Part shown: positions 10,006-36,521 of the stretch, piece by piece
Position numbering within the stretch: position 1 is the first letter of the stretch
How the letters are laid out: every line of letters begins with the position of its first letter
Assembly (NCBI GenBank): GCA_919902735.1
Contig: CAKKRM010000124.1
Location: forward strand, 1 to 41,726
DNA length: 41,726 nt
Source: Anaerolineales bacterium
GTDB lineage: Bacteria > Chloroflexota > Anaerolineae > Anaerolineales > Villigracilaceae
Direction of reading: 5' to 3'
Made by a program: the position numbers and the translations under genes
Notes under the pieces: model-generated
Database searches by the model: none
The model's input: only the letters and a program-made list of their open reading frames with translations
Told to the model about the DNA's origin: nothing

Positions 10006-10103
10006 CGCCATTACGAGGACGGTGGTCTTCCACCCGAAGCAATCTCCTCACATAACAGGGGATTGCTTCGTCGCGAAGAACAAGAGCGCTCCTCGCAATG
10101 ACG
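10006..10103. repeat. GTCATTGCGAG palindromic repeat, copy B
   Basis: It starts CGCCATTACGAGGAC, has the central GAAGCAATCTCC/GGGGATTGCTTCG pair, and ends CTCGCAATGACG. It separates the dch and MaoC genes. Confidence 0.75.
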
Positions 10104-16133: not shown

Positions 16134-17300
16134 TCAACCAAATAAAATATTTTCCGTAAACGTCTCCAGTTGAATTTCCATTTGATCGAAACTGGTCATG
16201 CTTTCTTCAAATTCGCTGACGAAGTAGGGGATTCCTTTTTCGTCCAATGCCTTTGTATAAGCGACTTGATCTTCAAGACCAGGCTCGCACATCTTCGCCG
16301 CAGTGATGATCGCCGCACTCGCCCCCGCATTGGAGATCCTCTCCAAAAGCATTTTTTCCTTTGGCTTACGCGCGTCGTGCTGTACAGGGCTGTAACTTGA
16401 TTTTTCAAGATATGCTTCTGCAAGATTGAACAACGGATCGCCTTCAAGCGAGACATCTTCAAGTATCCATCTCAAGCCGATTAATAGATCGTCGTCCACC
16501 ACATAACAGGATTGCGAGATCGTGCGGATTAGATCCAGCGGAGGCTGTTCGCAGAAACCACCCTCAAAGACTACCCGTATCTTGTCCTGACGTTTGGTTG
16601 GGCGCGTCTCAATAAGCAGGATCGCGGCTTTGAGCAGTTCGTTATGCTCCTCGCGCAGGATCAATCCGCCGACATTCGTAAGCAAATAGGCTTCATACGC
16701 CGAGATCAACCAGGGTTGCTTGCGTTTGATTTCATATAACTGGCGCAACAGACTTCTATTTTCATTATAGACAGATAAGGAATTATTCAGCGCTTCTACC
16801 GTGACCTTGTTCCCCGTGATCGCTTCGATCTCCGCCTGTACACGCGCATATTCTTCGCTCAGGTAAGTTGCAGACGCGGTGGAATTTGCGTTTTGTGGCA
16901 GATACAGAATCTGGCATGGATAATCAAAGTTGCGTCCCCATATAGCCGCGAGGTTACGAGCCGCGTCGCAGATGGGGTGGGTAACGAACATATCCAATTC
17001 GACTTTCTTGCTCAATACAAGTTCAAGCGAGGTTTTGAGGATCGAACACAGATAGGAGCCGAAATGGGAATCCGCGTGCGTTGGTTCGATGGCTGCGCCG
17101 CGTATTTTCAGCGGCAACATCCCCGCCGCGTGAGCGATCTCTTCTGGAAAGTAAACCTGAAAATGACCGAGAACTTTTCCCCCCGCTTCGCGCCAGCGTT
17201 TGACCGTCGAAAAATCGGTATCTTCCACAACTTCCCGGCATTCCGCGATAATCCATTCTAAAGACTGCCCCTGCCAATTTCTGAATAGTTGTAAAGCCAT
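16134..17300 (-). CDS. bzdN: Benzoyl-CoA reductase subunit (BzdN/BcrC type)
   Basis: A 388-residue member of the same HgdB/BcrC family and the first gene of the reductase operon. Candidate cluster ligands are C111 in [12 protein letters not shown]250 in [11 protein letters not shown] and C338 in [11 protein letters not shown]. The length matches BzdN-type subunits. GGAGGTTCTAC precedes the ATG at 17300. Immediately upstream lies a strong promoter with an inverted-repeat operator. A decayed paralogue of the first 120 or so codons, with its own copy of that control region, lies at 35375-35733 upstream of trpB2. Confidence 0.9.
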
Positions 17301-17338: not shown

Positions 17339-17387
17339 AAACATATCTCACTTAATTTGCGCTATCGTGTAATAGTGAGATATGTTT
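17339..17387 (-). promoter_or_regulatory. Operator: perfect 14-bp inverted repeat with 21-bp spacer, upstream of bzdN
   Basis: AAACATATCTCACT at 17339-17352 and its exact reverse complement at 17374-17387 flank a 21-base spacer, a centre-to-centre distance of 35 bases. The distal arm abuts the -10 box, so the transcription start falls inside the site, as expected for a repressor. The arms, spacing and neighbouring promoter recur at 35771-35847, while the spacer sequence differs. Confidence 0.85.
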
Positions 17388-17415
17388 AGTATAGGACTTT
17401 TTTGGGATTTGTCAA
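17388..17415 (-). promoter_or_regulatory. Sigma70-type promoter of the bzdN operon
   Basis: On the minus strand TTGACA (17415-17410), 16 bases, then TATACT (17393-17388). It leads into the operator and, about 80 bases on, the bzdN ATG. The gap 17421-17515 between this promoter and the end of hyuB holds nothing else I can support. Confidence 0.85.
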
Positions 17416-21276: not shown

Positions 21277-21288
21277 AAAAAACTCCTA

Positions 21289-22881
21289 TTATAGATTCAC
21301 CGGCTCAGGAAATTTGCCGAAGACATCTTTCATCACGCCCGTAATTTCGCCTATTGTCGCGTAGGCACGGACGGCTTCCATTAAAGATGGCATGAGATTT
21401 TGATCGCTGCGCGCAGCGTCGCGGACTTTTTCCAGCGCGGCTTTGACCGCGTTTGAGTCGCGGCGAGCAATCACCTCCGCCGTGCGGTGAATCGCGTCTG
21501 TCGCTTGATCGGGATTGTAAGCGTGTAAAGCTACGTCCCGTTTTTCTTCCTCCATACGATGGCGGTTGACGCCCACCTTCGGGATGGAGCCGTCCTGAAT
21601 GCCTTTTTCATACGCAAAGGCTTGGCGCGCCACTTCCCCTTGAACGATACCCTCGCTGACCGCTTTCACGATCCCGCCCCACTCATCCTCCACGCGCTGC
21701 ATTTCGGTAACGATCCGCGCTTCGATTTCGTTGGTCAGGCTTTCTACATAGTACGAACCAGCCAGCGGATCCACCGTGTCACCAATGCCCATTTCTTCGA
21801 TCAGCAATTGCATGGTGCGCAGCGAGATCAGGGCGGCTTTCTCGGTGGGGATGGTGTAGGCTTCATCATAACTACACAGAGCCATGGTCTGCGTGCCGGA
21901 AAGGGCGGAGATCAAAGCGTAATACGCGCCGCGCACGATATTGTTTTCCGGCTGTTCGATGGTCAAGCCGCCGCCACCGCCCCCGGCGATCATCTTCATC
22001 ATCATGGTGTTGGGATTTTTTGCGCCGAATTCATCCCTAATGATCCGCGCCCATAAGCGCCGCGCCGCGCGGAATTTGGCGATCTGCTCGAAGAAATTGC
22101 CGAAAATATCGAGGTTAAACGAAATCTGTCCCGCGAAATCATCGACGTTTAGCCCGCGTCCCAACCCGCGTTTGATATATTCCTTGGCGATGGCGTAGGC
22201 GTAAGCGATCTCCTGCACGGGGTTGGCGCCCGATTCGCGAATGTGGTAGCCGCAAACGGAGACAGGATAGTATTTGGGTGCATTACGGGCGCAGAACTCG
22301 ATGGTATCGCCAATCAAGCGGACTCCAGCTTCCACCGGAAAGATCCACGCGCCGCGCCCGATGTATTCTTTTAGGATATCGTTTTGGGCGGTGCCGCGTA
22401 TTTCCGCCAATGGAATCCCCTGCTTCTCGGCAACGACAAAATACATTGCCATGATCGGCGCTGCAACGGCGTTGATCGTGAGTGATACGCTGATCTGATC
22501 GAGGGGAATCCCCGCGAAGGCGACCTCCATGTCAGCGAGCGTGTCCACCGCCATCCCCACCCGCCCGACTTCTCCTTCGGCTAATGGGTCGCTGGAATCC
22601 AATCCCATTTGCGTGGGAAGATCGAAAGCGACGTTGAGCGCGTTTTGCCCATTTTCAATTAAGAATTTGAAACGTTGGTTGGTTTCGTGCGGCGCGCCAA
22701 ACCCGGCATATTGACGCATGGTGAAGGGTCGCTGCCGGTACATATAAGGATGAATGCCGCGCGTGAAAGGAAATTCTCCCGGCTGCCCTATCTCATGTTT
22801 TGGATCGACATCTTCGGGACCGTAAACCGGTTTGATTGGGATACCCGATTCCAAAATCACTTCTCGAATTTTAGAACTCAT
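21289..22881 (-). CDS. B12-dependent acyl-CoA mutase, large catalytic subunit
   Basis: A 530-residue methylmalonyl-CoA mutase-type TIM barrel without its own B12 domain. It has FTMRQYAGFG (Y58 at the methylmalonyl-CoA pocket tyrosine), NVAFDLPTQMGLDSSDP, GTAQNDILKEYIGRG (R176 at the carboxylate-binding arginine) and VCGYHIRESGA with the active-site His. The conserved Tyr and Arg suggest a malonyl-type carboxylate in the product. GLDSS replaces the usual GYDSD, a possible pocket change. In this operon the likely substrate is 2-aminophenylsuccinyl-CoA, rearranged to 2-aminobenzylmalonyl-CoA, rather than methylmalonyl-CoA. No MeaB-type chaperone gene lies nearby. Confidence 0.88.
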   Translation of the reverse strand: MSSKIREVILESGIPIKPVYGPEDVDPKHEIGQPGEFPFTRGIHPYMYRQRPFTMRQYAGFGAPHETNQRFKFLIENGQNALNVAFDLPTQMGLDSSDPLAEGEVGRVGMAVDTLADMEVAFAGIPLDQISVSLTINAVAAPIMAMYFVVAEKQGIPLAEIRGTAQNDILKEYIGRGAWIFPVEAGVRLIGDTIEFCARNAPKYYPVSVCGYHIRESGANPVQEIAYAYAIAKEYIKRGLGRGLNVDDFAGQISFNLDIFGNFFEQIAKFRAARRLWARIIRDEFGAKNPNTMMMKMIAGGGGGGLTIEQPENNIVRGAYYALISALSGTQTMALCSYDEAYTIPTEKAALISLRTMQLLIEEMGIGDTVDPLAGSYYVESLTNEIEARIVTEMQRVEDEWGGIVKAVSEGIVQGEVARQAFAYEKGIQDGSIPKVGVNRHRMEEEKRDVALHAYNPDQATDAIHRTAEVIARRDSNAVKAALEKVRDAARSDQNLMPSLMEAVRAYATIGEITGVMKDVFGKFPEPVNL

Positions 22882-22903
22882 AAAGACTCCTGTCTATTAT
22901 GCA

Positions 22904-22935
22904 GACCCTAAAGGTTTTAAGAAACCTTTAGGGTC
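22904..22935. other. Perfect 14-bp stem-loop at the mutase subunit junction
   Basis: GACCCTAAAGGTTT (22904-22917) pairs exactly with AAACCTTTAGGGTC (22922-22935) around a four-base loop. It spans the 3' end of the B12-binding subunit gene and its stop codon. No T-run follows on the minus strand, so RNA stabilisation or processing is more likely than termination. Confidence 0.7.
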
Positions 22936-23321
22936 TTGCCCTGGATAAATAAAGCGATTTCATCGAACGAACTGCCGGTCGGGAATATGCCCGCCACGCC
23001 GAGCGCTTTCAAAGATGGAATGTCTCTTTCGGGGATATTGCCGCCAATCAGGACAATCTTATCGTTCATGCCTGTCTGGTTCAATTTAGCCATCAGTTTC
23101 TCGGCGATGGGCAGGTGCGCACCGGATAGAATGGACAGACCGATGACATCCACATCTTCTTCAAGGGCGGTATCGAATATCTGGTCAACCGTCTGGTGAA
23201 GTCCCGTGTAAATCACTTCAAAGCCGGCATCTCTCAGCGCAATGGCAACCACTTTTGCGCCCCGGTCGTGACCGTCGAGTCCCGGCTTGGCAATGAGAAT
23301 CCGTATAGATTTTGTTGTCAT
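22917..23321 (-). CDS. B12-binding small subunit of the acyl-CoA mutase
   Basis: A 134-residue cobalamin-binding domain. [12 protein letters not shown] is the DxHxxG lower-ligand motif, and the SILSGAH and IGGNIPERD segments complete the fold. The start ATG at 23321 follows GGAGAACAC; a longer reading extends through a repeat into the next gene and is rejected. It lies 35 bases before the catalytic subunit gene. The two form a split mutase as in archaeal methylmalonyl-CoA and 2-hydroxyisobutyryl-CoA mutases. Confidence 0.9.
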
Positions 23322-23337
23322 GTGTTCTCCATATAAT

Positions 23338-23423
23338 GTCACTGCGAGCGATTTGCGCGAAGCAGTCTCCGCGTGACATGAGATTGCTTCGTCGCAAAGA
23401 ACAAGAGCGCTCCTCGCAATGAC
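23338..23423. repeat. GTCATTGCGAG palindromic repeat, copy D
   Basis: It starts GTCACTGCGAGC, has GAAGCAGTCTCC facing GAGATTGCTTCG, and ends CTCGCAATGAC. It lies between the acyl-CoA dehydrogenase and mutase small-subunit genes. Confidence 0.75.
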
Positions 23424-23433
23424 ATATTCATCT

Positions 23434-24594
23434 TTATTTTTTTCGCTGCGCAGGCGCGCCCATTTCGCGGGCAATGTTGGTGCGCAGTATTTCCGATGTG
23501 CCGCCGCCGTACAACAGGAAACGCGCGTCGCGATAGTAGCGTTGAGCGTCGTATTCCATGGCAAAACCGTAACTGCCATAAATTCGGGTACACTCGTCGG
23601 CGATAAAGTTGGCAACCTCAGTTGCGAATAACTTAGCCATGGATGCTAATTTAACATCACGATGTCCCGCGTCTATATCCCTTGCGGCGCGATAAACCAG
23701 GGCATCGGCAGCCTCAAGTCGTGTACCCATTTCCGCAATTTTATGCGAGATCGCCTGGAAGTCGGCAATTGGGCGTCCAAATTGTTCTCTTTCGTTGGAA
23801 TATTTAATCGCAGAATCCAGCGCGGCTTGTCCCAACCCCAATGCCAGCGCGCCGGTCATCACTCGAATCTGGCATAGGATTTCGCCCAAATTCTTGAAGC
23901 CGGTTCCCTGTTTGCCCAGCAAATTACCAGCTGGAACTTGAACTTTATCCAAAATCAATTCCGATGTTTCAGAGGCGCGCACGCCCAGCTTGTTGATTTT
24001 GCGCCCCACCCTAACCCCGCGCATCCCTTTCTCGACTAGAAAAAAGTCAATTCCTTTGAACCCAGCCTCGGGGTCGGTTTTGGCGGCGACGGTAAAGAAA
24101 TCAGCCATCGTCGCAGAGGTGATCCACATCTTCTGCCCAGTGATGATCCATCCACCCTCTGTCGGCGTGGCGCGCGTGACAATGCCGCCCAGGTCGGAGC
24201 CGAAGTCCGGTTCTGTCATGGCGATGGTTCCAATCTTCTCGCCTCTTAGCGCGGGTTCAACCAATCGTTTCCGATGATCGTCGGAGCCAAAGCGAAAGAC
24301 CAGGTCGGTGCCCATCAATGTCTGCATGGCAACCACAGCGCCCAGCGAGAGAGAACCGCGCGCTAACTCTTCGATCATCATGCAGTACGTGAAAAAATCA
24401 GCGTCCATCCCGCCCACTGATTCGGGATAACGCAAGCCGAAATAACCGTTGACCGCGCAGCGTTGGAAAAGTTCGCGCGGAAATTCGCCCTTCTCGTCCA
24501 GCTCTTGCGCCGCAGGAATGACTTCCCGATCCACGAAGCTGCGGACGGAAGTACGGAAAAGAGTTTGTTCTTCAGTCTGTGAAATGTCTTTCAT
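23434..24594 (-). CDS. Acyl-CoA dehydrogenase lacking the usual catalytic Glu; likely decarboxylating
   Basis: A 386-residue acyl-CoA dehydrogenase. FAD and substrate segments are [28 protein letters not shown] and [18 protein letters not shown]. The C-terminal motif reads [10 protein letters not shown], so G364 replaces the Glu of the MCAD-type YEGT motif. The alternative base position used by isovaleryl- and long-chain enzymes (Glu before Arg in the ERL motif) is I243. Proposed role: oxidative decarboxylation of 2-aminobenzylmalonyl-CoA to 2-aminocinnamoyl-CoA, where loss of CO2 itself makes the alpha-carbanion. ATG at 24594 is chosen over the TTG just before it. Confidence 0.88.
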
Positions 24595-24620
24595 CAAATC
24601 ATCCAGTAATAATGTGTCAT

Positions 24621-24702
24621 GTCATTGCGAGGAGGGTGATCTTCCCGACGAAGCAATCCCCTCGTGACAGGAGACTGCTTCGCGCAAAGCGCTCGCAGTG
24701 AC
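24621..24702. repeat. GTCATTGCGAG palindromic repeat, copy E
   Basis: It starts GTCATTGCGAGGAGGG, contains GAAGCAATCCCC and GGAGACTGCTTCG, and ends CTCGCAGTGAC. It lies between the CoA-transferase and acyl-CoA dehydrogenase genes. Confidence 0.75.
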
Positions 24703-24709
24703 ATTGGGT

Positions 24710-25912
24710 TTATAAGATTCCCTGGGATTGAAGCGCTGCCACATCGCAGCCCAACGCACCGAATACAATTTCGTTATGTTCGCCTAACCTTGGCGGAAAC
24801 TCCATCGTCATACCACGCTCGTGGAGGTGGGCGGAAATGATCGGCGGCGGGGAAATGGCGATTTCGATGCCTGTTCGGGGATCGCGCGCCTTCACCAAAT
24901 TATCGGCAATCAATGGATCGGCGCACACTTCGGAGATGCGGTTGACCCTTGATATGGGAACCCCAACATTGTTGAAGCTATCCATCATTTCCTGGGTGGA
25001 GTGTTTTTTTATGATCGTCGCCAGCTTATGGTTTAGTTCTTTCGCCGCGCCAATGCGCCCGGAATTACGCACGTATTCAGATTCAGCGAGGGATTCAAAA
25101 CCCGGCAGTTTCGTGATGGCTTCCCACTGCTTATCGTTGCCGACTGCCAGATAGATGAAACTATCCGCAGTGGCAAACACCGACACGGGAGCGAAAAATT
25201 GATGGGTGTTCCCGTGGCGGGTGACGGGGATGTTGAAACTATTCGAAAGCATGACAGGCGAAACCATCCACGAAACCGCCGATTGGAACATGGAGATATC
25301 CAAGCGGGCGCCCTCACCGCTGACGGCTCGTTGGTAAAGGGATTTCATCACCAATCCGTAAGCGTGTTCACCTGCGCCTAAATCTACCATTGGCAAGCCG
25401 AAAACCATCGGGTCGCCGTCAGGTTCCCCGGTCAGTTCCATGAGACCGGCGCGGGCTTGCAAGATGGGATCGTAGGCTGCTTCGTTGCTCTGAGGACCAA
25501 ACCCCGTGATCCCGACCCAGATCAGATCCGGCTTGATGGCGCTCAATGTTTCGTAATCAATTCCGAGTTTCTTGTAGGAACTGGGGCGCTGGTTGGTGGC
25601 AAAAATATCAACCGGCAGTTCGTGAATTAGTTTGTGCAATAATTCCTGCCCTGCGTCAGTACTCATGTCGAGGGTAATGGACTGCTTTCCCAGGTTATTA
25701 GGAAGGAAATAGGCGTTCATTCCCTGCTCGTAATCTGTTTCGCTTTCCTGATTGATCAACACTGGCGATCCCACCCAGCGGTTCGGGTCGCCGCGCGGAG
25801 GAGACTCAAGGCGAATGACGCGCATTCCATCCATCGCCAACTTGAGCGTCAAGTAGGGGAGGGTGGTGGCCTGTTCTATCGAGAGGACGGTGAGGGAGTC
25901 GAAAAGAGTCAT
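24710..25912 (-). CDS. Class III (CaiB/formyl-CoA transferase family) CoA-transferase
   Basis: A 400-residue family III CoA-transferase. The aspartate that forms the acyl anhydride is D177 in GLPMVDLGAG. LQARAGLMELTGEPDG before it is the family segment, and WVGITGFGP is also conserved. In anaerobic aromatic pathways such enzymes exchange CoA between succinates and aryl-succinates (BbsEF, and the phenylsuccinyl-CoA transferase of the indoleacetate route). Here it most likely activates 2-aminophenylsuccinate, with succinyl-CoA or an indole-derived CoA ester as donor. It lies 12 bases after the VOC gene in the same operon. Confidence 0.88.
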   Translation of the reverse strand: MTLFDSLTVLSIEQATTLPYLTLKLAMDGMRVIRLESPPRGDPNRWVGSPVLINQESETDYEQGMNAYFLPNNLGKQSITLDMSTDAGQELLHKLIHELPVDIFATNQRPSSYKKLGIDYETLSAIKPDLIWVGITGFGPQSNEAAYDPILQARAGLMELTGEPDGDPMVFGLPMVDLGAGEHAYGLVMKSLYQRAVSGEGARLDISMFQSAVSWMVSPVMLSNSFNIPVTRHGNTHQFFAPVSVFATADSFIYLAVGNDKQWEAITKLPGFESLAESEYVRNSGRIGAAKELNHKLATIIKKHSTQEMMDSFNNVGVPISRVNRISEVCADPLIADNLVKARDPRTGIEIAISPPPIISAHLHERGMTMEFPPRLGEHNEIVFGALGCDVAALQSQGIL

Positions 25913-25924
25913 GAAACAAACGCT

Positions 25925-26368
25925 TCATTCAGCGCGTTGAATTGGTTTTTTTTCTGCCAGATGGATTAACACACCGAAAGCATCCCTGGGATGCACGAAG
26001 GCTTCACGCCAGACTTTGCCCTCGAAGGTAACGCCTTCGCCATAGGTGTGCCGGTAAGCGATGCGCCCGCCTCGCTGCTCCAGTTCGGCAATTGCGGCAT
26101 CGAGATCATCCACTTCGAAGGTGATGTGGTGGACGCCGGGTCCACCATTTTTTTTGAGAAATTTTGCCACGGGGCTATCCTCGCGGGTGGGTTCGAGCAA
26201 TTCCATGCGGCTCGTGCCAATCTCGAATGGGCGGTAGCGGATGCCCATATCTTCAATCATTTCTTCCGGGGCAAACTCTGCCCCGAACCACGTTTCAAAG
26301 AAATGCTGCGCCTCTTCCAGGTTGGAAACGGCGAGGGCAACGCGTTCGATTCTTTTTACGTAAGTCAT
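25925..26368 (-). CDS. VOC-fold protein, methylmalonyl-CoA epimerase-like with altered metal ligands
   Basis: A 147-residue two-repeat VOC protein close to methylmalonyl-CoA epimerase. RMELLEPTREDSPVAKFLKKNGGPGVHHITFEVDD matches that family well. By eye, the first metal-binding His (usually in a DHIAIAV-type start) is Arg in IERVALAV. The last ligand Glu (usually in VLIEL) is His in GVLIHLAEK. The middle His in GVHHI is kept. It could be an epimerase for the branched malonyl-CoA made by the mutase, with a changed metal site, or a derived binding protein. The stop of the aminotransferase overlaps its start by ATGA. Confidence 0.78.
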   Translation of the reverse strand: MTYVKRIERVALAVSNLEEAQHFFETWFGAEFAPEEMIEDMGIRYRPFEIGTSRMELLEPTREDSPVAKFLKKNGGPGVHHITFEVDDLDAAIAELEQRGGRIAYRHTYGEGVTFEGKVWREAFVHPRDAFGVLIHLAEKKPIQRAE

Positions 26369-27531
26369 ACCCGCTCCATAAGTTTTAATTTTGACTCCAC
26401 GGAAGTTCCTTCAGGGATTCCAAGTTTTTCCCGCAGAACGATCTCCAGTCGGGCGATAAAAATGGCGTTCTCCTCTGGTGTTGCCACCGTGATACGCACC
26501 CCGTTTGGAATCCCAAACCCGGCGGTGTGACGGACGATGACCCCGCGCCTTAACAGCGCCCCTTCCAATTCAGCTGGGGGGATGGGCGGGTCAATCAAAA
26601 GCACCGAGTTCATGTGGCTGTCCAGGCAGGTCAAGCCCAGTCCGCGCAGCGAATCGCGCAAGAATGCCCGTCCCGCCAGGATGGTTTTGCGGTTGTATTC
26701 ATGGAACTCATCATCGTCCATGCTTGCCATTGCCGCTGCCAGCACAATATCGGAAGTGTGAAAAGGCAGTTGGGCGTGACGCACGTAATCAGCCAGATCT
26801 GCCGTCGCAGCCAGATAGCCGACGCGCAGGTTGGCAAGCCCGGCGGTTTTGGAAAAACTACGTACAACGATAATGTTTTTCCCGGCGCGGATATAATCCA
26901 AACTGTCCGCGTAATCCTCCGCCTCCACGTAGCGGTTATACGATTCATCCAAAACGACAGGGATATGGCCGGGGACTTTGGCGATAAAATCATCCAATTG
27001 GGATTGGGTGATGATCGTGCCGGTGGGATTGTTGGGCGAACACAGAAACACGATCCGCGTCTCGTTGTCAATCTGCGCCAGCATGGCGGGTAAATCGTGA
27101 CAGTAATCCGCCGTGTAGGAAACCTGGCGATTCTGTCCGCCGTACGTGGTTGTCAAAATATGATACATCGGGAATGTTGCGGAACACATCACCGTGTTGC
27201 CGCCCTCGAACAAAAATGCCTGAGTGATCATCCGCAAAATGTCCGTTCCGCCGTTGCCAGTGACAAAGTTGTCTTCGGTGAAACCCTCGCCGAAACGCTC
27301 GGCAAGTTTTCGCCGGAGATCGCGTTCGCCTATGCCGGGATAACGATGGGCATCTTTTAAAGCCCGCTGGACGGCTTCCAATGCCATCGGCGAAGGACCG
27401 TTGGGGCTTTCGTTCGAAGCCATCTTAATGACTTCGCCCAAGCCAAATTCCTCTTTGACGGCGTCAATTGATTTGCCGCCGATGTATAAAGGCACTTTCA
27501 ATAAATTTGGGTTTAACCGCAATCCCGTCAT
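26365..27531 (-). CDS. Class I/II aminotransferase (HisC-like), likely aromatic amino acid aminotransferase
   Basis: A 388-residue PLP enzyme of the histidinol-phosphate aminotransferase type. N-terminal ASNESPNGPSP, SPNNPTG, VVLDESY and SFSKTAGLANLRVGY (K228 binds PLP) are all present. HisC-like proteins often act on aromatic amino acids. Its place between the molybdenum hydroxylase and VOC genes, with four-base overlaps on both sides, and the presence of iorAB in the operon argue for tryptophan to indolepyruvate rather than histidine synthesis. Confidence 0.85.
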   Translation of the reverse strand: MTGLRLNPNLLKVPLYIGGKSIDAVKEEFGLGEVIKMASNESPNGPSPMALEAVQRALKDAHRYPGIGERDLRRKLAERFGEGFTEDNFVTGNGGTDILRMITQAFLFEGGNTVMCSATFPMYHILTTTYGGQNRQVSYTADYCHDLPAMLAQIDNETRIVFLCSPNNPTGTIITQSQLDDFIAKVPGHIPVVLDESYNRYVEAEDYADSLDYIRAGKNIIVVRSFSKTAGLANLRVGYLAATADLADYVRHAQLPFHTSDIVLAAAMASMDDDEFHEYNRKTILAGRAFLRDSLRGLGLTCLDSHMNSVLLIDPPIPPAELEGALLRRGVIVRHTAGFGIPNGVRITVATPEENAIFIARLEIVLREKLGIPEGTSVESKLKLMERV

Positions 27532-29876
27532 TCAGTTTTCTCCTTTTCCATAATTGCCGCCAGTACCCGCTCCGGGGTCATCGGGAGTTGAGTCATCCGA
27601 ACACCCACCGCATCATAAATGGCGTTTGCAATGGCGGCAGCTGTGGGTGTGCCACCCATCTCGCCTACTCCCTTCGCGCCAAACGGTCCCTTGGGGTCGT
27701 CGGTTTCAACGATAATAGATTTGATTTCGGGCATATCGGCAGATGTGAATAACCGATAGTCAAGAAGATCAGGATTGAGTATTTTGCCGTTCTTGACAAG
27801 CAACTCTTCAGTCAGTGCGTAACCCAGCCCCATCTGCGCGCCGCCTTCGATTTGACCTTCCACCGCCATCGGATTGATGGCAAATCCAACGTCGTTCGCG
27901 CAAACCAGCCGCAAGACTCGCACTTTGCCGGTTTCCGTATCCACCACTACCTCAGCCATCTGTGCTCCAAATCCGTAAGCCGCCGAGATATTTCCTTTAT
28001 ACGTATCCTTGTCTACAAGTTTGGTAGGCGGATCGTACCAGCCTTCGCCGAGAATCACTTTTCCGCCTTCTTTGAAATGACGGCTTCGAGCGGCTTGCGC
28101 AATCGTAACAGATCGTTTTGGATCATCTTTGACCGTCACGCTGCCATTATTGGATAGCAGCTCTTCAGGTTTGGCTTTCAGTAGTTCCGCCGCGGTTTCG
28201 AATATTTGGCTGCGGGCGTCCAATGCGGCAAGGTAAGCGGCGTTGCCCGCGATGAAAGTTGTCCGACTGGCATGAACGCCAACATCCCAAGGTTTGATGT
28301 CGGTATCGCTGTTAAGCACCGTGACGTCTTCCATTTTCGCGCCCAAGGTTTGCGCCACAATTTGCGCCAGTACGGTTTCCGAACCTTGCCCGATCTCGGT
28401 GGAACCTGTGATCAAAGTGACGTGTCCAAAGTCATCCACTTTAACCGTCGCGCCGCAGCCGTCGCTGCGGTAAATGCGCGCGCCGCCGCCAACATTGAGC
28501 GTAGCGGCAAAGCCAATTCCGCGCTTCAAGTGCGGCGAATCCTTTGCGGTAAGCGGACGGTTGACCGCCACGCTTCGCGCAGTATTGGAAACCGGGGCGC
28601 TTGCGTTGTGTTTGGCGCCCTCATCGGCGTTTGCAGCGACAGCTTCCAGGCATTCTTTCATGCCGCAGGATGTGATGATCAAACCTTGTGGCGTCTCTGA
28701 ATTGGGAACATTGGCGTTGTGGACGCGGAACTCCACAGGATCCATTCTCAAAGCCTCGGCTAAACGATCCATGATCGTCTCGACGAAGAAAGTTGATTGG
28801 GGATTGCCATAACCGCGCATTGCGCCGGTGATCAAATTATTGGTATAAACGCAGTCAGCCTGGAAGCGCACATGGGGCACTTGATACAACGAGGCGGTGG
28901 TTTCCATCATCACCAGCGGCGTCACCGATCCCCACGAAATATACGCGCCGACATCCAACATGCAGAAAACATCGCGGAAGGTAAGCGTGCCGTCAGACTT
29001 CGCGCCGGCGCGAACTTTGACCTCCACAGGCTGGCGCGCGGGACCGGCGGTAAATTCTTCGTGACGTGAAAACGCCAGGCGCACGGGCTGTCCCACCTTG
29101 CGCGCCATTAACGCGGCAATGGGTTCATATGGATAGATATCCAGCCCGCGCCCGAACGCGCCGCCGACGGCGGTCTGGATGATTCGAATCTGGCTGCCTG
29201 AGATTCCCAGCGCCTCGGAGAGATCGCGCTGCAATAGGAAGGGGATTTGAGTGGTGCTCCATAACGTCAGGTGATCGCGCAGGTCGAATTGGGCTACAAC
29301 TACGCTCGTTTCCATGCAAGCGTGGGTGACGTAAGGAACCGTATAACTGGCTTCGATCACAACATCTGACTCGCGCTCGCCCTGCTCCAATTCTCCATGA
29401 GCATAGCGATAACTATGGAACATGTTCGATTGGGATTTGCGCTCGGGGTGGATCAAAGGCGCGCCCTCCGCCAATGCCCCTTTGGGTGAAAAGATCGCGG
29501 GGAGCGGTTCATATTCCACCGTGATGAGTTCGAGGGCTTCCTCGGCTATGTCAGGGTCGATGGCGACCACTCCCGCGATTTCATCACGCAAACTGCGGGC
29601 AATAGCTTTGAAAGGCCTGTTGTCTTTGCCATACCCAAACAGATGCGAGGGATTATCAGCCGAAGTCAGGACGCACTTCACGCCGCGCAGATTCTTCGCG
29701 CGCGATATGTCAATGTTCACTATCTTTGCGTGAGGATAGCGGGAATATAAAATTCTGCCATGCAACATCCCGGGCAAGCGGACATCGTGTCCGTAAGTGG
29801 CTTTGCCGGTAGCTTTCGCAGAGGCGTCCATCTTGGGGACGCGTTGACCAATTATCTGAGCGGATGGATTCGTCAT
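27528..29876 (-). CDS. Xanthine dehydrogenase-family molybdenum hydroxylase, large subunit
   Basis: A 782-residue molybdopterin-binding subunit. It has [46 protein letters not shown], the [10 protein letters not shown] segment and [10 protein letters not shown] with the catalytic Glu near residue 739. The start ATG at 29876 overlaps the iron-sulfur subunit stop by ATGA; the longer upstream reading lies inside that gene. Such enzymes hydroxylate carbon next to ring nitrogen using water. In the known indoleacetate pathway one makes 2-oxo-indoleacetate (enol/keto forms), which is the role inferred here. Carbon monoxide dehydrogenase is excluded, as the CO-specific Cys loop is absent. Confidence 0.88.
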
Positions 29877-30340
29877 GATCCTTCTCCAGCTACGCTCATC
29901 ACCGCTTCTACGATTTTGACGTATCCGGTGCAGCGGCACAAATTGCCCGAAAGCCATGCACGCACTTCTTCTTCTGTCGGGTGCGGATTCTCCTTAAGCA
30001 GGGACACCGCGTTCATCACAAATCCCGGCGTGCAAAAGCCGCACTGAATGCCGCCTTTTTCGATCAAGGCGCGTTGGATGGCGTGAAGTTGGCCGTCCGC
30101 CATGAGTCCTTCCACGGTCAGCACGTCGGCTCCATCCCAATCGGCGGTCAGCATCATACAGGATGTTACGGGGAGTCCGTTCACCAACACCGTGCATGCC
30201 CCGCAATCGCCAGAGTCGCAGCCGCGGTGCGCTCCCAAGAGTCCCAAGTCGTTGCGCAGTACATCCAACAGGGTGCGGCGGGTATCAATATATAGTTCGT
30301 GGGTATCGCCATTGACGTTGAGCGTAATCAGAGTTTTCAT
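29873..30340 (-). CDS. Molybdenum hydroxylase, [2Fe-2S] subunit
   Basis: A 155-residue small subunit. [11 protein letters not shown] with a following Cys in VTSCMML holds the plant-type [2Fe-2S] cluster. [10 protein letters not shown] and the LCRCTGY segment hold the second, molybdenum-proximal cluster. It overlaps both neighbours by ATGA, so the three subunits are co-translated. It passes electrons from the molybdenum site to the FAD subunit. Confidence 0.93.
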
Positions 30341-31182
30341 TGGATTGACTTAATGCCTCGTTTCAATAGAACTTCCACCATGCGCCGCCGATACCAGGCC
30401 GCACCTCGCACATCGTCAATCGGAGAGCATTCCTGCGCGGCAGTTTTGGCGGCTTGGAGGATACGCTTATCGGTGAGAGTCTGCCCCGCTAATATTTCTT
30501 CGCTTTGATGGGCGCACAAAGGCACGGGCGCAACAGCGCCAAGAACCACTCTCGCCTCGCGGCACACATCGCCCTCCAGCAAAATTCGCACCGCGACGCC
30601 GACCACGGCGATATCCATATAAGCTCGCGGGGAGTGCTTGAGGTAAATGGTCTGGCCCACAGGCGGCGGCAGCGTAATTTCTTTGAGCAATTCCCCGGGT
30701 TGCAAAACGGACTTGCCTGGACCCGTGAAAAAATCTGCCAATGGTAGTTGTCTCTCACCCGCTGGACCAATCAGGCTGACCAAAGCGTCCAGCGCAATCA
30801 AGGGCGGGGCAAGGTCGGCTGAGGGAGCGGCGTTGCAAAGATTTCCTCCCACTGTGGCAAGACTGCGAATCTGCTCGGAAGCCATGATGTGGGCAGTATG
30901 GGCTAGCGCCGGGTAATGTTCAAAGATGATCGGGGAACGGGTGAGTTCTCGAAGCGTTGTCAACGCGCCAAGTTTCAAGCCGTTAGCGGCATCGAATGTA
31001 AGACATCGTAGATCCGACAGTCGTTTTATATTGACGACCACATCCGATTTTCGGAGACCGGCCTTCATCTTAAGCAACAGGTCGGTGCCGCCGGCAATCA
31101 TAGCGGCTTTGCCGTTGTGTTCTGCCAGCAGGGACAAGGCTTCAGAAAGAGTAGTTGGAGAAAAGTGATTGAAGGGACGCAT
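30337..31182 (-). CDS. Molybdenum hydroxylase, FAD subunit
   Basis: A 281-residue CoxM/XdhB-type subunit. [13 protein letters not shown] and [19 protein letters not shown] are the two FAD-binding motifs. It lacks the extra four-cysteine loop that marks the FAD subunit of 4-hydroxybenzoyl-CoA reductase, so that enzyme is disfavoured. It follows iorB by 13 bases and precedes the iron-sulfur gene with a four-base overlap. Electrons probably leave to NAD. Confidence 0.9.
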
Positions 31183-31195
31183 AGGATGATTTTAT

Positions 31196-31753
31196 TTACG
31201 CTGAAAAAATTTTCCTGCCTGCCTGATAACCTGTTTCCAACGCCTTCAAATTCAATTCGGCGTTATTTTTAGAAATCTTCTCAACCGTTGCAGTCATTTT
31301 TTTTATGGGGATATCGAAAGCGGGGTGGGCTGCGGCAAAGCCAGCCATAATAATATTCGTGATGGAAGCGGAACCTAGTTCAAGCGCGAGACGGCTGGCA
31401 GGCAGTCTCATCACCTTGATATTCAACCTGTCGAGGTGATGTCCCACTTCGGAGCGCAAACCATCGTCGGCGTTGACAAAGACCATCCCCGCGCGCCGCA
31501 ACAAAGCCAGATTTCGGACGGCTTCATTTGCTTCCAGGGCGATCATAAAATCGGCAGTTCCGGACAGGATGAGAGGAGCTTCATCGCCATTGATCTTCAA
31601 ATGCGAGATCACAGAACCGCCGCGCTGGCTCATCCCGTGCGTTTCGGATACCATTACGGAATGTCCAAGTGTAACTGCAGTTTGAGCGAATAACCGCGTT
31701 AGAAAAACAATGCCTTGTCCGCCGTTACCGGTGATAATGAGTTTAATATCCAT
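31196..31753 (-). CDS. iorB: Indolepyruvate ferredoxin oxidoreductase, beta subunit (second copy)
   Basis: A 185-residue gamma-type subunit. GNGGQGIVFLTRLFAQ at the start and ETHGMSQRGGSVISHLK in the middle are IorB hallmarks. It lies downstream of its iorA partner, separated by repeat copy F, and 13 bases ahead of the hydroxylase FAD gene. Placement inside the indole operon supports indolepyruvate as substrate. Confidence 0.9.
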   Translation of the reverse strand: MDIKLIITGNGGQGIVFLTRLFAQTAVTLGHSVMVSETHGMSQRGGSVISHLKINGDEAPLILSGTADFMIALEANEAVRNLALLRRAGMVFVNADDGLRSEVGHHLDRLNIKVMRLPASRLALELGSASITNIIMAGFAAAHPAFDIPIKKMTATVEKISKNNAELNLKALETGYQAGRKIFSA

Positions 31754-31779
31754 GAAATATTTATAGGTTAATAGGTCAT

Positions 31780-31870
31780 GTCACTGCGAGGAACGACACT
31801 TGCAGTGCAGGTGAGCAGTCTTCCAGTGACAGGGGATTGCTTCATTGCAAAGAGCGCTCCTTGCAATGAC
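31780..31870. repeat. GTCATTGCGAG palindromic repeat, copy F
   Basis: It starts GTCACTGCGAGGAACG, contains GGGGATTGCTTC, and ends CCTTGCAATGAC. It lies between iorA and iorB and reaches within two bases of the iorA stop codon. Confidence 0.7.
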
Positions 31871-31871
31871 A

Positions 31872-33755
31872 TCATGCACGGGAGATTTCCAGTATCTTCG
31901 GAATAATAAAACCTTTATGACAGGCGTCAATACACTGCCCGCAATCAACACAGATGCTGTAATCAATATCCACGCGGCTTTTATCGGGACGCAGGACAAG
32001 CGCCGGGCACTCGAAAGCTTCCGTGCAGTAACGACATCCGTCGCATTCTTCCGTAATCACGACCGGAACCGGGTGTTCTAATATCGGACTCTGATCATAT
32101 AACGTGCAGGGACGTTCCGCGATAAGCACGGCCACGCCTCCGTCCGGGGATTGGGCGTGAGCTTGCGCTTCTTTTAATGTTCGGATGAAATCTTCCTGGT
32201 CATAAGGATCGGCAACGTTCACGTATCCCACGCCGCACGCGCGCACAAGATCGGGTATGGAAACTTTGCGCGGGGCTTCCATTCTATCCGCAAGATAATC
32301 GTTTGCCGCGGTGGGTTGAAAACCGGTCATCGCAGTAGTATGGTTATCGAGGATGAGCAGCACGAACCGCGCCCCAGTGTGGACCGCATTGATCAATGGC
32401 GCAACGCCTGAATGTAAAAATGTAGAGTCTCCTATCGTGGCAACTATCGGGCGTTCGTCTTTCACCAGGCGGTTGGCTTGAAAGAAGCCGTTCGCCATGG
32501 TGATTGAAGCGCCCATATCTACAAAAGTATCCACTGCCCGCAAGTTCGTTCCCAGCGTATAGCAACCAATATCACCAGGATATATTGCGTTCGGTCCAAA
32601 GGTGCGCTTCATGGCAAAGAAGGCGGAGCGGTGCGAACAACCCGGACACAAACGAGGAGGCTTTACCGGCAAAGGGAGTCCCTTGATTAGCGCTGCCAGC
32701 TCAGGGTCTTCAGGCGGCTGGTTCACTTGATAACCAGCCTCTGACAGGGCTTTGCTCAATACCAGGAAAATCACTTCCGGGGTCAATTCGCCAGCCCCCG
32801 GCACACTGCCGTCAAGCCGACCTTTCACATGGCTCCGATCTTGGATTTGAATCTCTATGCAGACGTCCGGCTCCTCGAGCACTATCAAGGTTTCAAATTG
32901 AGCGCAGAATGAATTAACCAGTTTTTGAGGCAGTGGAAAAGGCGTGCCAATTTTTAGTATCGGAACCCGCGCTCCCAATTCTTGCAGCGCTTGTTGGGCG
33001 GTTTGGAATGCAACACCAGAGGCAATGATTCCCATCGTACCGTTGCTGCTCGCATTAACTACATAATTGAGCGGAGAATCGGAAAATTCATCCGCAATAT
33101 CTTTCAGCTTTTTGTTGAGCTCAACATGCAGCAGATTGCGGAATTTTGGCGTGGCTGTCCAACGCGGCGGATCTCGATGGAATTTAACAGAGGGTATCCC
33201 ATCGTCGGGTTCATGAGCGCCATCAATAGACAGGCTCTGTACCGCATGACACAAGCGCGTTGTAGGGCGCAGGATAACAGGAATTTTGTATCGTTCAGAG
33301 AGTGCGAATGCGTCTTTTATCACTTCTCGCGCCTCGGCAGGGGTGGAAGGATCGAAGACAGGTATCTTGGCGACAAGAGCCATTAAACGCGAATCTTGCT
33401 CGGTCTGGGATGAGTGGGGACCGGGGTCGTCAGCAGAAATAACGACAAACCCGCCCTTCACGCCGGTATATGCGGCGCTAAAGAGCGGATCTGAGGCGAC
33501 ATTCAATCCTACTTGCTTCATTGTTACAACAGCCCGCAGACCGGTCCAACTGGCGGCTAAGGCAATCTCGAACGCCACTTTTTCATTAATAGACCATTCC
33601 GTGTACACATCCCTCTTAAGGCGCTTCTTATGCTTCATAACCCCGGCCAGAATTTCGGAACTTGGCGTCCCCGGGTAGGCTGTCACCACACGACAACCAT
33701 TTTCTATGATTCCTATCGCGATTGCTTCGTTTCCTAATATCGGTTGAGAATTCAT
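31872..33755 (-). CDS. iorA: Indolepyruvate ferredoxin oxidoreductase, alpha subunit (second copy)
   Basis: A 627-residue subunit with the same layout as the first copy. TAYPGTPSSEI and MKQVGLNVASDP lie in the N-terminal domain. CPGCSHRSAFF, GDIGCYTLG and GDSTFLHSGVAP...LDNHTTAMTG form the TPP site. The C-terminal ferredoxin-like motifs are CDGCRYCTEAFECP and CVDCGQCIDACHKG. It is about 47 residues longer than the other copy, with an insertion in the middle domain (near PDDGIPSVKFHRD). It turns indolepyruvate plus CoA into indoleacetyl-CoA and reduced ferredoxin, so it both feeds the pathway with a CoA ester and supplies low-potential electrons for benzoyl-CoA reduction. Confidence 0.92.
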   Translation of the reverse strand: MNSQPILGNEAIAIGIIENGCRVVTAYPGTPSSEILAGVMKHKKRLKRDVYTEWSINEKVAFEIALAASWTGLRAVVTMKQVGLNVASDPLFSAAYTGVKGGFVVISADDPGPHSSQTEQDSRLMALVAKIPVFDPSTPAEAREVIKDAFALSERYKIPVILRPTTRLCHAVQSLSIDGAHEPDDGIPSVKFHRDPPRWTATPKFRNLLHVELNKKLKDIADEFSDSPLNYVVNASSNGTMGIIASGVAFQTAQQALQELGARVPILKIGTPFPLPQKLVNSFCAQFETLIVLEEPDVCIEIQIQDRSHVKGRLDGSVPGAGELTPEVIFLVLSKALSEAGYQVNQPPEDPELAALIKGLPLPVKPPRLCPGCSHRSAFFAMKRTFGPNAIYPGDIGCYTLGTNLRAVDTFVDMGASITMANGFFQANRLVKDERPIVATIGDSTFLHSGVAPLINAVHTGARFVLLILDNHTTAMTGFQPTAANDYLADRMEAPRKVSIPDLVRACGVGYVNVADPYDQEDFIRTLKEAQAHAQSPDGGVAVLIAERPCTLYDQSPILEHPVPVVITEECDGCRYCTEAFECPALVLRPDKSRVDIDYSICVDCGQCIDACHKGFIIPKILEISRA

Positions 33756-33858: not shown

Positions 33859-35241
33859 CTAAAAAGCAACCTGCGGTAAATTCTTCATGGATTCTGCGAT
33901 CTTTTCCTCGGGATATTCGAATTTCTCCAGTTTGCCCTTTCTATAATCGTCATACGCTGTCAGGTCAAAGAAGCCGTGACCGGAGAGATTGAAGACGATG
34001 ACCTTGCTCTTGCCTTCTTCCTTGGCTTTCATCGCTTCGTTGATCGCGGCGCGCACCGCGTGGGAGGATTCCGGCGCAGGGAAGAGTCCCTCGGCGCGGG
34101 CGAACATCATCGCGCCTTCGAAGGTATCCAACTGGTCAAGGGCGATGGCTTCGACATGACCGCTGTCAACCAGCGCGGAGACATGTGGCGCCATGCCATG
34201 ATAGCGCAAGCCGCCTGCGTGAATTCCCTGCGGGACGAAATCGTGTCCGAGCGTGTGCATTTTGACGATGGGCGCCATTTGGGCGGTATCGCCGTAATCG
34301 AAGGCGTATTTGCCTTTGGTCAGGGTCGGGCAGGCGGTCGGCTCGACAGCGACAATCCGCGTTTTCTTGCCGTTGGTCAGGTTTTGGTGAATGAAGGGGA
34401 ATGCGATTCCGGCGAAATTACTGCCGCCGCCCACGCAGCCAATCACCACGTCGGGATATTCGCCCGCCATTTCCATCTGCTTTAACGCTTCCTGCCCGAT
34501 GATGGTCTGGTGCATTAAGACGGGACCCAATACCGAACCGAGTGAATATTTGTATTTGCCGTTGGATGTCGCTGCTGCCTCAACCGCTTCGGAGATGGCC
34601 ATGCCAAGCGAGCCCGGGGTATCCGGATACATTTCCTGCATTTTGCGCCCGTAGTTGGTTTGGTCCGAGGGACTGGCGACGACGCTTGACCCAAAACTTT
34701 CCATGATGATACGGCGGTACGGTTTTTGGTGATAGGAAACTTTCACCATGTAAACGTGACATTCCAAACCAAACATATTAGTCGCCATCGCGAGCGCCGT
34801 TCCCCATTGTCCCGCCCCGGTTTCGGTCGTGAATCCCACACAGCCTTCCTGTTTGGCGTAAAACGCCTGCGGGACGGACGTGTTGGCTTTGTGCGACCCG
34901 ACAGGGGAAGCGCCTTCGTATTTGTAGTAGATGTGGGCAGGAGTATCGAGAGCTTTTTCGAGACGGCGGGCGCGGATGAGCGGGGTGGGTCGCCAGAGTT
35001 TATAAATCTCCCGCACTTCTTCGGGGATATCAACCCAGCGGTCCATGCTGACCGCTTCCTGGATGAAGCGCATGGGGAAAAGAACAGACAAGAACTCCGG
35101 CGTAACCGGTTCCTTGGTTTGCGGGTTTAGCACCGCGTTCCAGGCTGTCTTCGCCGGGTCAACCGGCATGTCCGGGTTGATGTTATACCAGGACGTTGGC
35201 AAGTCATTTTCGGAAAGATTGTACTTATACTGATCGCTCAT
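33859..35241 (-). CDS. trpB2: TrpB2-type tryptophan synthase beta-like protein
   Basis: A 460-residue PLP enzyme of the TrpB2 class. It has [22 protein letters not shown] (K118 binds PLP), ETGAGQWG with the catalytic Glu, GGGSNFAG for the phosphate, and the long TrpB2-type N-terminus. The start ATG at 35241 follows GGAGAG; a longer reading of 30 residues upstream has no ribosome site. TrpB2 enzymes join free indole with serine or phosphoserine without needing TrpA contact. No trpA or other trp gene is nearby. As first gene of the indole operon it may bring free indole into the pathway as tryptophan. Confidence 0.88.
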
Positions 35242-35340
35242 GGGTGCTCTCCTTTGGTTAACTAGGTTTTTTGAAGACGACAGGGTTGTTGATCTATTTA
35301 TCCATATAATCCATAAATCTCTCCTATCCATTTACAAAAC

Positions 35341-35369
35341 ATTATCTTTTAGTTACCAGAACACGACAA
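35341..35369 (-). promoter_or_regulatory. Possible secondary promoter for trpB2
   Basis: On the minus strand TTGTCG (35369-35364), 17 bases, then GATAAT (35346-35341), about 100 bases before the trpB2 ATG. Matches are 4/6 and 5/6, and there is no operator next to it. It is weaker than the promoter at 35820-35847 and could be chance. Confidence 0.35.
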
Positions 35370-35374
35370 CTTAT

Positions 35375-35733
35375 TTAATCCGAAGTGGATTCCCCCCGCC
35401 GTGTTGCATATTGGGCGGCAAATCTATCCAATTCGATTTGCTGACTCAACGCAAGTTCAATCAAGGTTTTGATGATCGAATACAAATAGGAGCCGAAATG
35501 GGAATTCGAGCGCGCCAATTCAATGGTTGTGTTGCGCATTTTTAGCGGTAACATCCCTGCCACATGAACAATTTCTTCTGGAAATAAATCTGGAAATGAT
35601 CTAGTACCTTTCCCCCCGCTTCACGACAACGCTTCACCGTCGGAAAATCGGTGTCTTCCACCAACTCCCGACATTCCGCGATGATTCCATCCAATGACTG
35701 ACCCTGCCACTTCTCGAATAATCGTAAAGTCAT
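35375..35733 (-). pseudogene. Decayed 5' fragment of a bzdN paralogue
   Basis: The start MTLRLFEKWQGQSL matches BzdN ([14 protein letters not shown]), with its GGAGGTTCTGC ribosome site intact. Homology continues through GGKVLDHFQIYF; there one base is missing from the TTTCC run and the frame shifts. It resumes in the next frame as AGMLPLKMRN...SHFGSYLYSIIKT...ELD, then degenerates near the codon for the first cluster Cys, C111, which is lost, and ends at a stop. About 120 of 388 codons remain, similar but clearly diverged from the intact gene, so the duplication is not recent. It lies between a conserved promoter/operator and trpB2, as a leftover leader. Confidence 0.88.
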
Positions 35734-35770
35734 GCAGAACCTCCAAATGTGAGGAAATTTAACGTCTGGA

Positions 35771-35819
35771 AAATATATCTCACTTTTGTAGCGCAATGTC
35801 AGAAGAGTGAGATATGTTT
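35771..35819 (-). promoter_or_regulatory. Second copy of the 14-bp inverted-repeat operator
   Basis: AAATATATCTCACT at 35771-35784 faces AGTGAGATATGTTT at 35806-35819 with the same 21-base spacer as at bzdN. One base differs in the left arm, and the right arm is identical to the bzdN operator. The spacer has diverged, so the arms look selected. Confidence 0.85.
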
Positions 35820-35847
35820 AGTATAAGACCTTTTTTGGATTTGTCAA
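35820..35847 (-). promoter_or_regulatory. Second copy of the bzdN-type promoter, reading toward trpB2
   Basis: TTGACA (35847-35842), 16 bases, TATACT (35825-35820) on the minus strand, abutting the operator exactly as at 17388-17415. With its own gene decayed, the first intact gene downstream is trpB2 at 35241. No strong terminator is seen in between. Confidence 0.8.
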
Positions 35848-35901
35848 CTTAAAATTTAACAGGGAGTCTTCTATGGCCCTTATTACGGATAAAGTCTATT
35901 C

Positions 35902-36011
35902 AGGACTTTCGCATGTCCTTCGGGAGTGCGGTGAGAATCTCTGATTTCGGGGTAGAGACCCTTCGCTAACGCTCAGGGTGACATGAAAAACCGAAATTGA
36001 GCGAAAGTCCT
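35902..36011. repeat. Palindromic element with 11-bp terminal inverted repeats
   Basis: AGGACTTTCGC (35902-35912) and GCGAAAGTCCT (36001-36011) are exact inverted ends. Inner pairs such as TGATTTCGG/CCGAAATTG add to it, and it includes a CTCAGGGTGAC piece shared with other repeats. It occupies most of the gap between the duplicated promoter and the lipoprotein gene. A 23-codon ORF at 35873-35944 on the plus strand, with AGGGAG before its ATG, runs into it; I do not recognise it and do not call it a gene. Confidence 0.6.
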
Positions 36012-36024
36012 ACTATTGTATAAT
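35997..36024 (+). promoter_or_regulatory. Likely promoter of the lipoprotein gene
   Basis: TTGAGC (35997-36002), 16 bases, TATAAT (36019-36024), about 30 bases before the ATG, with AGGAG in between. The -35 box is inside the end of the palindromic element. Confidence 0.5.
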
Positions 36025-36053
36025 GATGGAACATATTTTATAAAAGGAGAAAA

Positions 36054-36521
36054 ATGATGAAAAAGTATGGAGTTTTCCTTGCGATCCTGGCTTTGGTTTT
36101 TGCCTCGCTTGCCTGCCAGTCGGTGATGGGCGGCGGCAATGATGTTGACCAGATCGAAAGCCTGCCCACCGAAGTTAATACGGACGATCTTCCCACGGCC
36201 CCGCCTGGATCTTCGGACGATACCGGTTCCCCCTCTGGAGGTGATTCTGAATTCCCGATGCCTGACGATGCAAAGAATATCGTCAGCGTGGCTGGGACGG
36301 TGAATTACCAAACCAACCTAAGCCTGGAAGAAGCGATGGCTTTTTATCGCGATTATTACGGCAAGCAGGGCTTCACGGAGCGCGAGTTGTTGACCACCGT
36401 CACGGATGGCGTTTTCAGTTTTGTCTTTGACGGCGATGCAAGCGGAAAGGCCATTGTGATTCAAGGCGTTGACCTTGGCGACGGCAGTGTAAACGTGAAT
36501 ATTTCCCTCCAAGATATTTAA
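36054..36521 (+). CDS. Small secreted lipoprotein of unknown function
   Basis: A 155-residue protein with a lysine-start hydrophobic signal and lipobox FASLAC (Cys near residue 21), followed by a flexible acidic, Pro/Ser/Gly-rich linker to about residue 68. The folded part (FPMPDDAKNI...VNISLQDI) has LSLEEAMAFYRDYYGKQGF, a pattern seen in small extracytoplasmic proteins that resemble lipid- or polymer-binding domains. I do not recognise a specific function. It has its own promoter and a bidirectional terminator, and is not part of the catabolic block. Confidence 0.8.
   Translation: MMKKYGVFLAILALVFASLACQSVMGGGNDVDQIESLPTEVNTDDLPTAPPGSSDDTGSPSGGDSEFPMPDDAKNIVSVAGTVNYQTNLSLEEAMAFYRDYYGKQGFTERELLTTVTDGVFSFVFDGDASGKAIVIQGVDLGDGSVNVNISLQDI

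Follow-up and report, generated by a model that had tools for sequence, protein, structure and literature searches.

A copy of a bcrC promoter and operator, likely captured into one PaaX-type regulon, ahead of a trpB2-led operon in an uncultured Anaerolineales bacterium

Why should the control region of a benzoyl-CoA reductase gene be found a second time, in front of a broken copy of that gene and at the head of an operon of a different function? The question arises from a 41.7-kb contig of a 4.26-Mb Anaerolineales genome, analysed over its whole length and called the window in what follows. The genes annotated between 35241 and 1196 are all read from the minus strand and form two head-to-tail groups. 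The first group (35241-17516) codes for TrpB2, IorA, IorB, a three-subunit molybdenum hydroxylase, a HisC-like aminotransferase, an epimerase-like protein, a CoA-transferase, an acyl-CoA dehydrogenase, a two-part B12 mutase and hydantoinases A and B. The second, from 17300 downward, holds reductase genes of the bcrC, bcrB, bcrA and bcrD type, a PaaX-family regulator, and hydratase, dehydrogenase and thiolase genes. The first-pass annotation of this DNA had named the first group an indole operon, which is fair by homology because its set of mutase, CoA-transferase and dehydrogenase matches the indoleacetate pathway of Aromatoleum as outlined in PMC8360864. The trpB2 gene (33859-35241) is located near the genes for indolepyruvate oxidoreductase (31196-33755) and aminotransferase (26365-27531), and the presence of these three functions suggests that indole may enter via tryptophan (indole plus serine) before the indoleacetate route. 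The genes on which the argument turns are the following.

33859-35241, minus strand: trpB2 (TrpB-like PLP enzyme), first structural gene after the relic of bcrC (gene annotation)
17516-33755, minus strand: rest of the putative operon, iorA to hydantoinase A and B (gene annotation)
16134-17300, minus strand: intact bcrC/bzdN-type gene, 388 aa (gene annotation, profile scores)
12111-12953, minus strand: PaaX-family regulator in the bcr operon, proposed binder of both operators (domain and structure matches)

Positions 35412-35854 of the minus strand are a copy, 78% identical, of the bcrC control region and of the first ~107 codons of the gene (source gene start at 17300). As a DNA match within its own genome the copy reaches 78% identity with E = 8.4e-94, and source and copy align without gaps in three co-linear stretches of 192, 185 and 85 nt, at 77-79% identity and an offset of 18,432-18,434; a gapped alignment was also made. 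The coding part of the copy, the relic, has a 1-base deletion near codon 50-51, and its homology to the source stops near 35412, about codon 107 of 388. These alignments confirm the duplicated control region and the frameshifted, truncated coding copy first reported for this locus; the block is real, but of the span proposed for it (35375-35847) the lower end has to be moved, since recognisable homology ends at 35412 and not at 35375. The source gene, earlier called bzdN, is indeed of the reductase type but nearer to BcrC (269 bits with TIGR02263) than to BzdN (95 bits with TIGR03190), both scores being under the curated equivalog cut-offs (421 and 454 bits, respectively). A homologous control region is thus found ahead of an unrelated gene, as promoter capture would leave it. 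The control elements of source and copy are located as follows.

17388-17415, minus strand: source promoter of bcrC, TTGACA-16-TATACT (alignment, pattern search)
17341-17385, minus strand: source operator of bcrC, perfect 12-nt arms (pattern search, arm scan)
35842-35847, minus strand: -35 hexamer TTGACA of the likely captured promoter (invariant in 9/9 trpB2 loci)
35820-35825, minus strand: -10 hexamer TATACT, 16-nt spacing (invariant in 9/9 trpB2 loci)
35773-35817, minus strand: PaaX-type operator, 12-nt arms 35806-35817 and 35773-35784 with a 21-nt spacer (alignment, arm scan)
35740-35744, minus strand: ribosome-binding sequence GGAGG of the relic (kept in 8/9 loci)
35412-35733, minus strand: relic, 5' part of a bcrC/bzdN-type gene, with a 1-base deletion near codon 50-51 (alignment)

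Six promoter-like matches were found in 35100-36150, of which TTGACA-16-TATACT (35847-35820) scores best, with 11/12 bases. Compared without gaps to the source, the minus-strand operator arms agree at 14/14 (AAACATATCTCACT) and 13/14 bases (AGTGAGATATRTTT) and are spaced by 21 bp, which places them 33 bp apart from centre to centre, and the ribosome site GGAGGTTCTRCATG is one base off. Promoter, arm counts, spacing and ribosome site had all been read in this way from the sequence, and the alignment bears them out. The exact pattern ATATCTCAC-gap-GTGAGATAT has only two sites in the 4.26-Mb genome, both in the window, one at bcrC and one at the relic. A search of 35100-36150 against Rfam returned one sub-threshold lncRNA match only, taken as chance. 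Transcription might additionally start from a weaker promoter-like match (9/12), which lies between relic and trpB2 at 35369-35341.

A search for the pattern TTGACA-N16-TATACT-N7-TCTCACT with at most 2 mismatches matched 38 of 400 genomes of the order, against 9/400 for a reversed-pattern control; shifted one base off register, the same pattern matched 10/400 genomes, taken as chance, and missed every known site. The zero-mismatch matches, 19 in 11 genomes, are all at bcrC or trpB2 loci, and in G215, G341, G312, G073 and the window both sites lie on one contig, 18-21 kb apart, ahead of bcrC and trpB2. A looser operator pattern gave 59 forward versus 107 reversed-control matches in 57 genomes of the genus, mostly noise, after which only sites at bcr or trpB2 loci with 0-1 mismatch were kept, together with those of G073 and G008:C412, which have 2 mismatches. 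The operator scan of confirmed trpB2 loci covered the best 80 of 593, and genes were mapped in six of the 80.

Nine trpB2 loci in two genera carry the relic or its remains: G000 (the window), G073, G008:C412, G005, G215, G341, G298, G312 and G388. Outside these counts are L128, which is without operator and for which no pathway neighbours were found, and G054 and G168/L080, which have no relic. At the nine loci mismatches per column pair amount to 0/216 in the -35 and 0/216 in the -10 hexamer, with rates of 0.10 and 0.15 in the arms, 0.39 in the 16-nt spacer and 0.48 in the 21-nt spacer; 27/36 columns are invariant in hexamers and arms versus 5/37 in the spacers (Fisher p 8.5e-8). In G073 and G008:C412 at least three bases of the second arm are changed. 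Over codons 2-42 of the seven gap-free relics (G005 and G073 excluded), differences at codon positions 1/2/3 are 378/301/383 and mean pN over mean pS is 0.68, compared to 318/192/814 and 0.20 in ten bcrC genes (G054 and G168 excluded). The relic's promoter in these relatives does not decay like its reading frame, and the invariant hexamers and nearly kept arms, set against almost flat codon-position differences, show that the control DNA was kept while the reductase sequence was largely released. Control DNA held on to during decay of the old gene is what promoter capture would produce, and the comparison of nine loci supports the first-pass annotation, which had proposed such a capture from one locus. 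We consider it likely that the block is a captured, PaaX-repressible promoter, by which the trpB2 operon was drawn into one PaaX-type regulon.

In the deeper relatives G054 and G168, trpB2 is preceded by a promoter and an operator-like repeat but by no recognisable relic; the repeat of G168 is degenerate, and the bcrC operators of both genomes have no clear right (second) arm. Covariation between the palindromic arms was not significant over 29 sites, G054 being out of register (281 vs 278.8; 1460/5000 shuffles as high). A tree of promoter and 5' gene end did not resolve a single clade of relics, joining only G073 and G008:C412 (100/99).

The captured promoter may have reached its place in more than one way. 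The copied piece, with promoter, operator and 5' gene end of bcrC, would have come to sit directly ahead of trpB2 either by insertion or as a deletion scar. In the latter case the bcr operon or cluster would once have stood upstream of trpB2, through tandem duplication or a rotation of the cluster, and would later have lost everything except its promoter end. The scar has the same function as the captured promoter and is a serious candidate, if somewhat short of an even chance. It agrees with the gene order in two other genomes, as trpB2 follows bcrD directly in G038 and oah-bcrCBAD lies directly upstream of paaX-trpB2 in G123, and with the erosion of the relic's 3' end, which varies among loci. 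Against it, the segment between relic and trpB2 matches, besides short weak matches, just its counterpart at other trpB2 loci among the loci compared, and no source gene was found there for this segment, mini-ORF included.

The neighbourhood of trpB2 elsewhere bears on the earlier history. It is the next pathway gene after paaX in G123, G085, G059 and G052, and a trpB2 fragment is likewise placed in G039. In a 17-row trpB2 tree (midpoint root) a split supported at 100/99 unites the operator-bearing genes in one group, which also contains L128, without operator, and G008:C22, whose upstream DNA is missing because only 19 bases of the contig precede the start codon of trpB2; outside this group are the paaX-linked trpB2 genes and the T-box-led genes of L052 and L060. 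It is plausible that paaX moved out of the trpB2 operon into the bcr operon and that trpB2 came under the copy of the bcrC promoter, which would have replaced an order in which a presumably autoregulated paaX preceded trpB2. The T-box leaders (L052 5652-5950, L060 8156-8458) precede other trpB2 genes of the same genus, so that catabolic and presumably biosynthetic trpB2 copies are under unrelated controls. The G008 bin holds two trpB2 5' ends, L050/L064 (C22 and C412), alike at 439/492 bases, which represent two copies or two strains.

The persistence of the relic itself calls for a second consideration. The copy had been described as dead, which is right for the reductase; its start, its ribosome site and an open frame nevertheless persist in 8/9 loci. 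Two frames are concerned in the window.

35542-35733, minus strand: open frame of 63 codons plus stop within the relic, possibly a leader ORF (frame analysis)
35294-35314, minus strand: mini-ORF MDYMDK with its own Shine-Dalgarno-like sequence (frame analysis)

The start and open frame of the relic could have been kept as a translated leader that acts, together with the mini-ORF, in protecting the long 5' RNA or in coupling translation to trpB2, a possibility to which we give tentative credence. The sequence GGAGGTTYTGC with a start codon (ATG or GTG) is kept in 8/9 loci, each of the eight start-bearing loci having an open frame of 58-101 codons, and all seven gap-free relics are free of stops in codons 2-42, which was reached in 1/5000 neutral simulations on the fitted tree (3/5000 with branches at 0.7 and 17/5000 at 0.5, kappa being fixed). 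Additionally, the mini-ORF occurs 66-75 nt ahead of trpB2 in 9/9 loci with its own Shine-Dalgarno-like sequence, encoding MDDK, MDEQ, MDYMDK, MDDIDK or, in G008:C412, 15 codons (4-15 codons overall). Several observations weigh against a leader: the open-frame test was post hoc, with no independent loci among 152 family genomes; the amino acid sequence of the relic is nearly unconstrained; stops in the +1 (6/7 relics) and +2 frames (4/7) are a weak control, as bcrC itself has them in 9/10 and 7/10; G073 lost start and ribosome site by deletion; the alignable homology of G005 ends after about 24 codons; and G054 and G168 are without relic. The fuller proposal, that a bcrC remnant was turned into the translated leader (58-101 near-free codons plus mini-ORF) of a ~18-kb PaaX-controlled catabolic operon, is rather doubtful. 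If true, it would be a natural pseudogene selected for being translated and not for its product; in any event, the locus offers a case in which the retention of a pseudogene as translated leader can be put to the test.

The regulator that might act on both operators is encoded at 12111-12953, within the operator-led bcr group of the window. Its product has the Pfam domains PaaX, PaaX_M and PaaX_C, all above gathering score, and matches the solved PaaX repressor 8a39 (E 2.1e-36); with 223.5 bits it stays below the cut-off of 264.55 of the NCBIfam equivalog TIGR02277 (PaaX) and is therefore a PaaX-family member rather than PaaX itself. The E. coli PaaX site given in PMC9493321 is TGATTC(N27)GAATCA, with 33 bp between arm centres, and paaX is autoregulated according to the same source. 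That geometry recurs here, with 12-nt arms and N21, although the letters of the E. coli operator are not matched, the window having TATCTC-N27-GAGATA in the same register. When the arm spacing was left free from 10 to 29 in a scan of the window and 29 other loci, sites were found at 21 nt; spacings of 19 and 23 returned shadows of these, and at 20 there was one additional, weaker site, which lies upstream of paaX in G059. By sequence, the operator also stands at the start of paaX itself in five genomes of other families (G059, G039, G038, G123, G085), and ahead of oah-bcrC in G039, G052, G059 and G123.

Ten of 152 family genomes contain an orthologue of the regulator (76-100% identity), and all ten have the promoter-operator; a distant homologue in G256 (34% identity) comes without operator. 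The 142 family genomes without an orthologue contain two matches (Fisher 4.9e-14), namely G388, which is a real trpB2 locus, and a match in G006 that has 1 mismatch and is taken as chance. As regulator and operators share one gene cluster, this co-occurrence is an association that cannot alone prove binding. Taken with the 33-bp geometry of E. coli PaaX and the operators at paaX starts, the co-occurrence in 10/10 genomes indicates that the operator probably belongs to the PaaX-family regulator of the bcr operon. Binding by some other regulator, to which the departure from the E. coli letters (TATCTC/GAGATA for TGATTC/GAATCA in 6-mer register) could point, is improbable in view of these same three findings. 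A Crp/Fnr-like box, GTGA-N6-TCAY, lies just 5' of the -35 hexamer in 9/11 promoters of paaX, oah, bcrC and trpB2 (G059, G039, G038, G052, G123, G085, G054), is absent from both G168 promoters, and was found in 0/19 promoters of genera g1 and g24, for which 45 upstream bases were read.

Conservation of the copied control DNA might also be brought about without selection, if gene conversion from the bcrC promoter kept the copy alike. In genus g1 the spacer identities are compatible with this, not being separated by locus (0.54-0.65 within the same genome, 0.51-0.76 between trpB2 loci, 0.41-0.86 between bcrC loci), with the proviso that the two loci of G008 are on contigs that may be of different strains. 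In genus g24, on the other hand, spacers are on the whole closer within locus (trpB2-trpB2 0.54-0.81, bcrC-bcrC 0.65-0.92) than within genome (0.43-0.68); moreover, conversion would not spare functional columns alone, and the aligned promoters show no long tracts identical to the bcrC promoter of their own genome, all of which makes it very improbable. That the promoter is alike only because the duplication is recent is hardly credible: the window copy is still 78% identical across 107 codons, but copies in two genera with diverged spacers, scrambled codons and invariant hexamers already disfavour this account.

With promoter capture as the preferred reading, a regulatory circuit can be proposed. 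The PaaX-family repressor, a product of the bcr operon, would bind the inverted repeat with 33 bp between arm centres at both operons, and since the operator begins 2 bp past the -10 box, bound repressor would lie over the transcription start. Release of the repressor from its operator may be brought about by an aryl-CoA formed in the pathway, and the upper (tryptophan/indoleacetate) operon, by transcription running into trpB2, and the lower (benzoyl-CoA-type) operon would fire together. The two halves of the pathway are probably switched on jointly. Selection would no longer act on the reductase sequence of the copy, but still on its promoter and operator and probably on the translation start of the relic.

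The proposed circuit resembles known PaaX regulons in its PaaX-family repressor, its 33-bp inverted repeat and its single regulator over both operons, and the operators at paaX starts in other genomes suggest that autoregulation may be shared as well; a reference title in PMC9493321 (del Peso-Santos 2006) likewise has PaaX linking the upper and lower styrene pathways of Pseudomonas sp. Y2. It differs in controlling a tryptophan/indoleacetate and benzoyl-CoA-reductase pathway of anaerobic type, in Chloroflexota, and in that the upper operator is a copy bearing a gene relic. The iaa operon of Aromatoleum aromaticum shares the CoA-transferase, the mutase (IaaGH) and the decarboxylating dehydrogenase (IaaF), whereas its regulators are IaaQ/IaaR by the account in PMC8360864, and the operon studied here pairs a PaaX-family gene with additional trpB2 and indolepyruvate oxidoreductase genes. 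For BzdR/MbdR, PMC4424350 describes aryl-CoA-responsive repression such as is proposed here, likewise acting on an anaerobic aromatic catabolic operon; these regulators, in contrast, belong to the XRE and TetR families and use other operators (MbdR, ATACN10GTAT). Literature searches for this pathway returned no paper whose title or abstract opening deals with it in these bacteria; the terms benzoyl-CoA reductase, Anaerolineae and indole all occur in PMC6472368.

That bacteria can capture promoters by deletion or tandem duplication has already been described (PMC11111574). In the cases treated there, which come from laboratory selection, an existing promoter becomes joined to a gene that was silent or had been newly placed, as at the trpB2 loci; the capture proposed here is natural, leaves the old 5' gene end recognisable and extends over nine loci in two genera. 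It would provide a natural example of the upper half of a pathway being wired to the lower by copying of a repressible promoter, in which the source, the scar and the later decay of the copy can all still be read in two genera. Our findings also propose a regulator and an operator for the tryptophan/indoleacetate pathway of uncultured Anaerolineales, which makes the regulon searchable.

Two dispersed repeats were noted in the window. A 48-nt repeat, 94% identical, is found at 10055-10102 and 23376-23423. Just upstream of the captured promoter, 35895-36020 is a repeat with 46 matches in its own genome, most of them partial, and with short terminal inverted repeats seen by eye (AGGACTTTCGC / GCGAAAGTCCT); it is possibly a small transposon-like element.
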